Source: Desulfobacteraceae bacterium (GTDB lineage: Bacteria; Desulfobacterota; DSM-4660; Desulfatiglandales; Desulfatiglandaceae). From it: a stretch of DNA of 64,000 nucleotides. The position numbers and the translations under genes were made by a program. The stretch is from assembly GCA_030613055.1 (NCBI GenBank), contig JAUWMR010000003.1, positions 1 through 64,000 of the forward strand. Direction: 5' to 3'. Shown here piece after piece: positions 54,761 to 58,249 of this stretch. The notes beneath the pieces are model-generated. The model was given only the letters and a program-made list of their open reading frames with translations. It did no database searches and had not been told where the DNA came from. Numbering within the stretch: position 1 is the stretch's first letter; each line of letters begins with the position of its first letter.

Positions 54761-54988
54761 GTGAAAGTAAAGTTTTCTCGCCATGCAAAACGAAGAGCAA
54801 AGCTCTATGAAATACCGGAATCAACAATTGAGAAAATATTAGCAGATTCGGAATTAAGCGATGGTGTGCATGAGTTAATCAGAGATATTGCCGGTTTTAA
54901 ATATCCAATAAAAATTGTTATTTCAGTTGAAAATGATATTATGACCGTAATTACAATCTATCCTTTGAAGAAAGGAAAAAGTCAATGA
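54761..54988 (+). CDS. DUF4258 protein (possible toxin)
   Basis: 75 aa with a GTG start; AAAGG lies 10 bases upstream. The pattern KFSRHAKRRAKLYEIPESTI ... YPIKIVISVENDIMTVITIYP matches DUF4258, a RelE-like compact fold found in toxin-type loci and in integron cassettes. The last codon overlaps the next start as ATGA. AT-rich compared with flanking housekeeping genes. Toxicity is not shown by sequence alone. Confidence 0.8.
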   Translation: MKVKFSRHAKRRAKLYEIPESTIEKILADSELSDGVHELIRDIAGFKYPIKIVISVENDIMTVITIYPLKKGKSQ

Positions 54989-55218
54989 AAGTACATTATG
55001 ATGAAGAAGTAGATGCCTTGTACCTCAAGCTTGGTGATCAAAAACCAGATGGGGTTATTGAAATTGCAGAAGGTGTAAATATTGATACCACAACTGATGG
55101 AAAACTTACCGGCATTGAAATACTCGCAGCATCCAAAAAAATCAATATTGACACTATCTTGTCCTATACTCTTGAATTAGATCAAGGTATATTGAAAAAA
55201 AATCGCCTAATCGAGTAG
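54985..55218 (+). CDS. DUF2283 protein (probable partner of DUF4258)
   Basis: 77 aa: MKVHYDEEVDALYLKLGDQK, VIEIAEGVNIDTTTDGKLTG, IEILAASKKI. This is a full-length DUF2283 domain, commonly paired with DUF4258 in a two-gene unit thought to be antitoxin-like. The four-base overlap with the preceding gene supports translational coupling. The pair fits one integron cassette. Confidence 0.85.
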   Translation: MKVHYDEEVDALYLKLGDQKPDGVIEIAEGVNIDTTTDGKLTGIEILAASKKINIDTILSYTLELDQGILKKNRLIE

Positions 55219-55407
55219 CCGGGGGTTTTTCTCCTCCAGCCCCCACAACACCCCCGCTAAAACGGGATCTACGACCCGCATGTGGATACACCTATCTGTA
55301 GAACTGTTGTTTATCATATGACCTCCTGGTGTTGTGTGCTCTTACGGGAATGAAGCCCATAAAACTTTTAACACAACATGTCATATGACACAAATATGGG
55401 CGGACAG

Positions 55408-55444
55408 GTCACCCTATAAGTTCACGCCCATGCCGGGCGTACAC
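55408..55444 (-). mobile_element. Group II intron 5'-end fragment next to attC
   Basis: On the minus strand from 55444 the sequence starts GTGTACGCCCGGCATGGGCG and continues for 37 bases with one mismatch to the intron at 612-649. Identity stops after GGTGACC. The 5' exon ends in CTT at 55445-55447, three bases from the attC core, as in the first copy. The remaining 55219-55407 shows no reverse transcriptase and no clear domain V. Confidence 0.68.
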
Positions 55445-55449
55445 AAGCC

Positions 55450-55550
55450 GCTCAACCGGACTGCCTTTTCTTTGCTTCTTTCTTTTTGCCTTGGGTTTTA
55501 GCCTGTTTTGCTCTTTTATAGAGCTTTTTATGTATGGCAGCCGGTTAGCT
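55450..55550 (+). other. attC recombination site (101 bp)
   Basis: R'' GCTCAAC (55450-55456, RYYYAAC) with L'' CGGACTGCC, and L' GGCAGCCG with R' GTTAGCT (55544-55550). The outer arms GCTCAACCGGACTGCC and GGCAGCCGGTTAGC pair with extrahelical bases in the left arm, the asymmetry that marks attC bottom-strand recognition. The loop of about 70 nt is long but within attC size. Defines the end of the DUF4258/DUF2283 cassette at 54727-55544. Confidence 0.65.
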
Positions 55551-55605
55551 CTGCGTTCGGCGCAATGAATGTGAGACGTTTCTACATTGCGCGTGAGGAG
55601 TTGTC

Positions 55606-58139: not shown

Positions 58140-58249
58140 AGCTTAATAAAACGCTGAACACCGAACTTTTCGTATGCAGGAGGCGTCCAAAAAGTCGGGT
58201 TAGCTTTGCGTTCTGGGGTTCTCATTGATCAGTAGACATTGCTGTAAAA

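Follow-up and report, generated by a model that had tools for sequence, protein, structure and literature searches.

Two copies of an intron 5′ end at attC-like hairpins

In a 64,000-nt stretch of Desulfobacteraceae DNA (the window; positions 1–64,000 of contig C19 in a 4.26-Mb draft genome of 97 contigs), a short block next to an attC-like hairpin repeats the 5′ end of a group II intron lying at the left edge of the same stretch. A preliminary description had taken this block for a second intron copy whose 3′ remainder was missing, which raises the question of what was inserted here and how it came to its present form.

Alignment within the window showed that positions 55407–55447 and 612–652, both on the minus strand, are identical at 40 of 41 bases (E 1.7e-15), in agreement with the similarity noticed before. 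When the whole 4.26-Mb genome was scanned with a 31-base core of the block, allowing up to three mismatches, only these two places were retrieved, while a reversed control pattern gave no matches in the same scan. As had also been claimed, the two copies have equal relative orientation to the hairpins that they adjoin, which belong to two different attC sites; no copy was found in this genome away from hairpins or introns. Small palindromic repeats are abundant in the genome, and one could suspect a chance match or a generic dispersed repeat behind the block. Given the E-value and the occurrence in two genomic places only, both of them attC sites, the probability of this is practically negligible, and the block was rejected as a generic repeat.

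The intron at the left edge is truncated by the contig end. The first 141 bases of C19 are the exact reverse complement of the first 141 bases of contig C73, and the overlap lies inside the reverse transcriptase (RT) gene, as expected where a repeat or variant interrupts an assembly graph. This break hides the full intron from the window. Joining C19 and C73 yields an intron of 1,941 nt, a full length known only across two contigs. Group II domain I–IV models of Rfam (RF01998 and RF02001) match the minus strand of the window at 155–250 and 399–485, and domains V–VI are recognized on C73 by RF00029 with 44.3 bits (cut-off 40; L032 1364–1433). The RT of 446 amino acids is uninterrupted and contains RVT_1 and GIIM domains; its best solved match is the GsI-IIC RT (E 1e-140). 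These domains and this match place the predicted protein in the IIC class. It is the only close RT in the genome, and provides an autonomous partner for shorter copies. A second group II RT, 49% identical to that on C73, is encoded at C49:29152–30372 (L148), with a matching intron-like 5′ end upstream. More decayed fragments of same-family introns were seen at G000:C68:40655–40993 (L034), also adjoining an attC-like hairpin, and at C88:37530.

The inserted element retains both intron ends

The sequence beyond the 5′ block was compared with the 3′ part of the full intron and of other family members. Positions 55204–55275 match two short elements of contig C95 at their 3′ ends (92%, E 7.7e-23) and likewise the 3′ end of the full intron on C73 (CGGCTACTCGAT). 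Alignment reveals, in the direction of the 3′ end, the 3′ strand of domain V (ACATGCGGG), a palindromic repeat, domain VI and the terminal CTACTCGAT. The element is therefore 235 nt long and has both intron ends (Table 1). The 3′ remainder reported as missing is present, and its cut falls within R″, precisely at the 3′ splice position; the loss instead concerns the middle, most of domains I–V being gone. A domain V remnant, which had been suggested as something to look for between 55219 and 55407, indeed exists, though disrupted by the palindrome.

That the block is a bare 5′ fragment, whose 3′ side was lost or never copied, was suggested by the fact that inside the window the left-edge intron matches only the first 41 bases. 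The match of a precise 3′ end already refutes this reading, which is scarcely tenable, and since the element is not a 5′-end fragment, there is no need for the unusual target-primed event that had been invoked. At this locus (L003), a search with RF00029 gave no match at E 1, so that the catalytic domain V is not intact, and no RT match was found between the two ends. Lacking a working domain V and an RT, the 235-nt product should be able neither to splice nor to move by itself.

Table 1. Features of the locus and of the left-edge intron (window coordinates)
Feature	Position	Strand	Basis
Left-edge intron, 5′ third and start of the RT gene; continues into C73	1–650	-	141-bp exact overlap
Region of the attC-like hairpin occupied by the left-edge intron; R″ GCATA^AA after joining C73	651–760	+	reconstruction
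DUF2283 gene of the interrupted cassette; stop codon TAG inside the intron 3′ end	54985–55218	+	
First five bases of attC R″ (GCCTA); intron 3′ exon; end of the DUF2283 frame	55205–55209	+	reconstruction
Whole element, internally deleted RT-less group IIC-attC intron relic, 235 nt, 5′ GTGTACG... to ...CTACTCGAT 3′	55210–55444	-	both ends matched
Domain VI and intact intron 3′ end	55210–55252	-	alignment; RF00029 on the full intron
Copy of a dispersed palindrome (TCGTAGATCCCGTTTTAGCGGG) within domain V	55252–55276	-	alignment
Domain V 3′-strand remnant (..ACATGCGGG..), running into the palindromic repeat	about 55262–55283	-	alignment with C73 and G036 C29
Nested start of a repeated DUF1670 (PF07900) gene, with its leader, ribosome-binding-like site, ATG and ~10 initial codons	55284–55404	-	sequence match
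5′ end of domain I (intron part 55409–55444) and 3 bases of 5′ exon (CTT)	55407–55447	-	40/41 against the left-edge intron
Rest of attC: R″ end (AA, 55445–55446), L″ (AACCGGACTGCC), long loop, L′ (GGCAGCCGGTT), R′ (GTTCGGC, 55555–55561)	55445–55561	+	reconstruction and fold
Uninterrupted attC-like site after the acyltransferase cassette (R″-like GCTTAAT ... R′-like GTTCTGG)	58141–58215	+	boxes by eye

The element splits the R″ box of an attC site

Excision of 55210–55444 in silico joins ATCGCCTA to AAGCCGCTCAACCGGACTGCC and restores an R″ box, GCCTA^AA, that agrees with the attC R″ consensus and is split by the element between its fifth and sixth bases. The boundaries given previously had to be corrected: the block does lie near attC, but the 5′ G of the intron is at 55444, and GCTCAAC, which had been designated R″, belongs to the L″ arm. 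As judged by the restored box and the fold, the insertion is within R″, in the bottom strand and antiparallel to the cassette gene. In the reconstructed bottom strand the R and L boxes pair with one bulged base, with a z of only -0.86, i.e., an energy unexceptional for the composition. Ten other filled sites that we reconstructed have comparable R″ boxes, most of them fitting RYYYA^A. Since a home-made attC scan (R″/R′ consensus plus pairing) gave no more hits than shuffled sequence, the attC assignments rest on reconstructed empty sites and folding. No empty copy of the attC was found among the relatives searched; when the cassette was looked for in empty or intron-filled form, the sole result was a DUF4258/DUF2283 pair, 81% identical, that lacks this attC.

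In published cases, IIC-attC introns enter R″ of the bottom strand at TTGT/T, in opposite orientation to the cassettes (PMC7923331). The exon bases of our element are GCTT/T, with the IBS3 T present and GCTT at IBS1 in place of the consensus TTGT. The idea that independent attC-linked copies reflect site-specific homing is borne out: the element represents a second, independent insertion from this intron lineage, at a precise position within an attC. Homing to attC is thus confirmed, but it is already-known behavior of group IIC-attC introns.

An integron integrase (IntI; TIGR02249, 362 bits, cut-off 265) is encoded on a different contig, C86, and the locus may accordingly be an attC array without a neighboring integrase. 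With its R″ split by the element, the attC is probably a weakened integrase substrate. The stop codon of the DUF2283 gene is supplied by the inserted intron end (CTA joined to ATCGAGTAG, 55205–55218); without the intron, the frame would continue through attC.

A nested gene start and a palindromic repeat in the interior

The segment between the domain I start and the domain V remnant is foreign to the intron. Positions 55284–55404 are 93–94% identical over 120 bp to leader and start copies of DUF1670 genes in two other genomes, where the matched gene belongs to a tandem pair of DUF1670 genes, and partial copies of the fragment were found on contigs C40, C4 and C27 of the same genome. A short reading frame across the element (MINNSSTDR...) might be taken for a real gene; we rejected this, since the frame is the DUF1670 start fused by deletion to the intron. 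L143 283–1850 holds DUF1670 genes in tandem, with a leader that is structured and conserved; in the genome under study this leader occurs by itself at scattered places (C40:17972, C4:5698 and C27:4291). Because its copies are scattered and highly similar, the DUF1670 unit looks like an uncharacterized mobile unit.

The palindrome inside domain V has a counterpart in a relative (G036 C29), where the same palindrome occupies the same place in an otherwise complete domain V; this explains how domain V of our element was broken. The palindrome recurs after GCATG(CGGG) of domain V, after GGCATG at the intron start, and after GGCAAG/AGCAAG in domain I. More generally, a palindromic repeat of ~22–27 nt (TCGNAGATCCCG...CGGGG) is repeatedly lodged after GGCATG/GCATG in introns of this genome and of relatives (e.g., L033, L071, L074, L105 and L191), at sites in domain I, in domain V and, in two different genomes, in the interior of the RT gene. 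It may have a target preference like that of IS200/IS605-type palindromes, with counts biased by the search pattern.

Short RT-less elements in relatives

Elements of this kind were sought in the same genome and in relatives, those with named records being Desulfobacteraceae and other Deltaproteobacteria drafts. At least 15 elements, ours included, have both intron ends and no intact RT gene; they range from 79 to 1071 nt and come from ten genomes, in a sample biased by searching with sequences that contain these features. Three are from the genome under study (235, 193 and 220 nt), and those from relatives measure 80, 83, 79, 161, 191, 261, 457, 458, 543, 638, 726 and 1071 nt. One further candidate, of 418 nt in L093, matched too weakly at its 5′ end and was left out. 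Intermediate degrees of shrinkage are represented among the relatives. Much of the ribozyme and a remnant of the RT survive in the 638-nt form, whereas the 79–83-nt forms retain no more than 16 start bases, a single palindrome and domain VI. Only 1 of 85 genomes of the order matched a strict 80-nt-class pattern, the other members having been found by looser means. As judged by their junctions, the small classes would have arisen by deletion between two palindromes.

Two pairs share a deletion at different attC sites. The 193- and 220-nt elements on C95 (G000:C95:27860–29040, L033) have one common deletion and, apart from one 27-nt domain I palindrome, are identical at 191 of 193 positions, yet they occupy two attC sites, separated by 0.9 kb, whose flanking sequences are unrelated. 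The 457- and 458-nt elements of genome G085 (L112 423–880 and L113, on C74 and C150) are identical at 414 of 456 positions. They differ in domain VI type, with 20/32 identical there versus 394/425 elsewhere (Fisher p 2e-5, the cut chosen after looking), a mosaic indicative of recombination between the copies. G085, an incomplete draft, yielded no intact RT of this family.

Origin of the 235-nt element

We consider it likely that an intron retrotransposed precisely into attC and that, once in place, it was altered by an insertion into it and by the deletion of internal sequence. This intron, of the group IIC-attC type and of one lineage with the left-edge copy, would have reverse-spliced into the bottom strand of attC between bases five and six of R″, as the boundaries are precise at both ends and R″ is restored, and reverse transcription and repair would have left a complete copy, since both termini are present. 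Later, a DUF1670-bearing element would have entered the domain I loop and the palindromic repeat domain V; a deletion would then have fused what is left of domain V to the DUF1670 leader, removing most of domain I, domains II–IV and the RT gene. The loss of the middle is thus attributed to the nested DUF1670-element fragment and the deletion. The composite structure itself is directly observed, and it is the order of insertions and deletion that we infer. None of the relatives has this attC with a full intron or with an intron and a complete DUF1670 element, and the composite may contain an assembly chimera.

An alternative is that the short RT-less form itself inserted here as a non-autonomous mini-intron, moved in trans by the RT of full-length introns; the ends that reverse splicing requires are kept, and the full-length introns would perhaps also provide ribozyme parts. 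The C95 and G085 pairs, with common deletions in different attC sites, are what one would expect of such movement, and ORF-less introns moved in trans are known in Thermosynechococcus elongatus (PMC2882425). However, domain V is broken or absent in the short forms, ours included, the interior of our element is unique to its locus, no intact RT of the family was found in the incomplete G085 draft, and the differing domain VI types of the G085 copies suggest recombination between them. Gene conversion between introns accounts for the shared deletions equally well as mobilization in trans. We therefore regard the alternative as unlikely for this element and assign the mobility of short forms a low probability; the broader proposition that Desulfobacterota integrons host RT-less group IIC-attC mini-introns (~80–540 nt, with both ends and domain VI and a broken domain V) spreading between attC sites in trans appears doubtful.

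Short copies could also be made in one step at insertion, if, while cDNA was being made from the primed target, the RT skipped from one internal palindromic hairpin to another. The deletion junctions of the 79–83-nt and 193-nt elements do coincide with the palindrome at three recurrent intron positions, and both ends are precise, but DNA-level slippage or recombination between the same repeats yields an identical product, the 638-, 726- and 1071-nt elements show piecemeal decay, and the interior of our element is a DUF1670 fragment rather than a hairpin-to-hairpin junction. Such a one-step origin is quite improbable, and precise retrotransposition followed by decay in place is the reading that we retain.

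Comparison with known introns

The locus resembles group IIC-attC introns such as S.ma.I2, Ge.s.I1 and UHB.F1 (PMC4424553, PMC7923331) in its insertion in the bottom strand of R″, opposite to the cassettes, and the full copy shares with them the IIC-type RT and the logic of a hairpin before the site. It differs in having no RT, a disrupted domain V, a foreign interior and a 5′ exon ending in CTT rather than the published TTGT. The truncated UHB.F1 has lost its 5′ end, whereas our element keeps both ends. Like the ORF-less introns of T. elongatus (TeI3 family, PMC2882425), the attC elements are internally deleted copies beside full-length RT-bearing relatives; those introns, however, have a complete ribozyme with a domain IV deletion and move in trans, while the attC elements lose most of domains I–V. 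The 79–83-nt elements of relatives look like group III introns of Euglena chloroplasts (PMC4424553), which are about 80–120 nt long with a domain I-like start, domain VI and no domain V. Group III introns reside in genes, while the attC elements sit in attC sites and are known from sequence alone. If mini-introns did spread in trans, they would be an analogue of group III introns or MITEs.

The locus preserves the dead remains of a group IIC-attC intron, a family already known; as a relic it is ordinary, though instructive. Searches for RT genes or domain V miss such copies, with the mild consequence that too few attC-targeting introns are counted in integrons, and each split R″ flags a cassette whose recombination site was hit.
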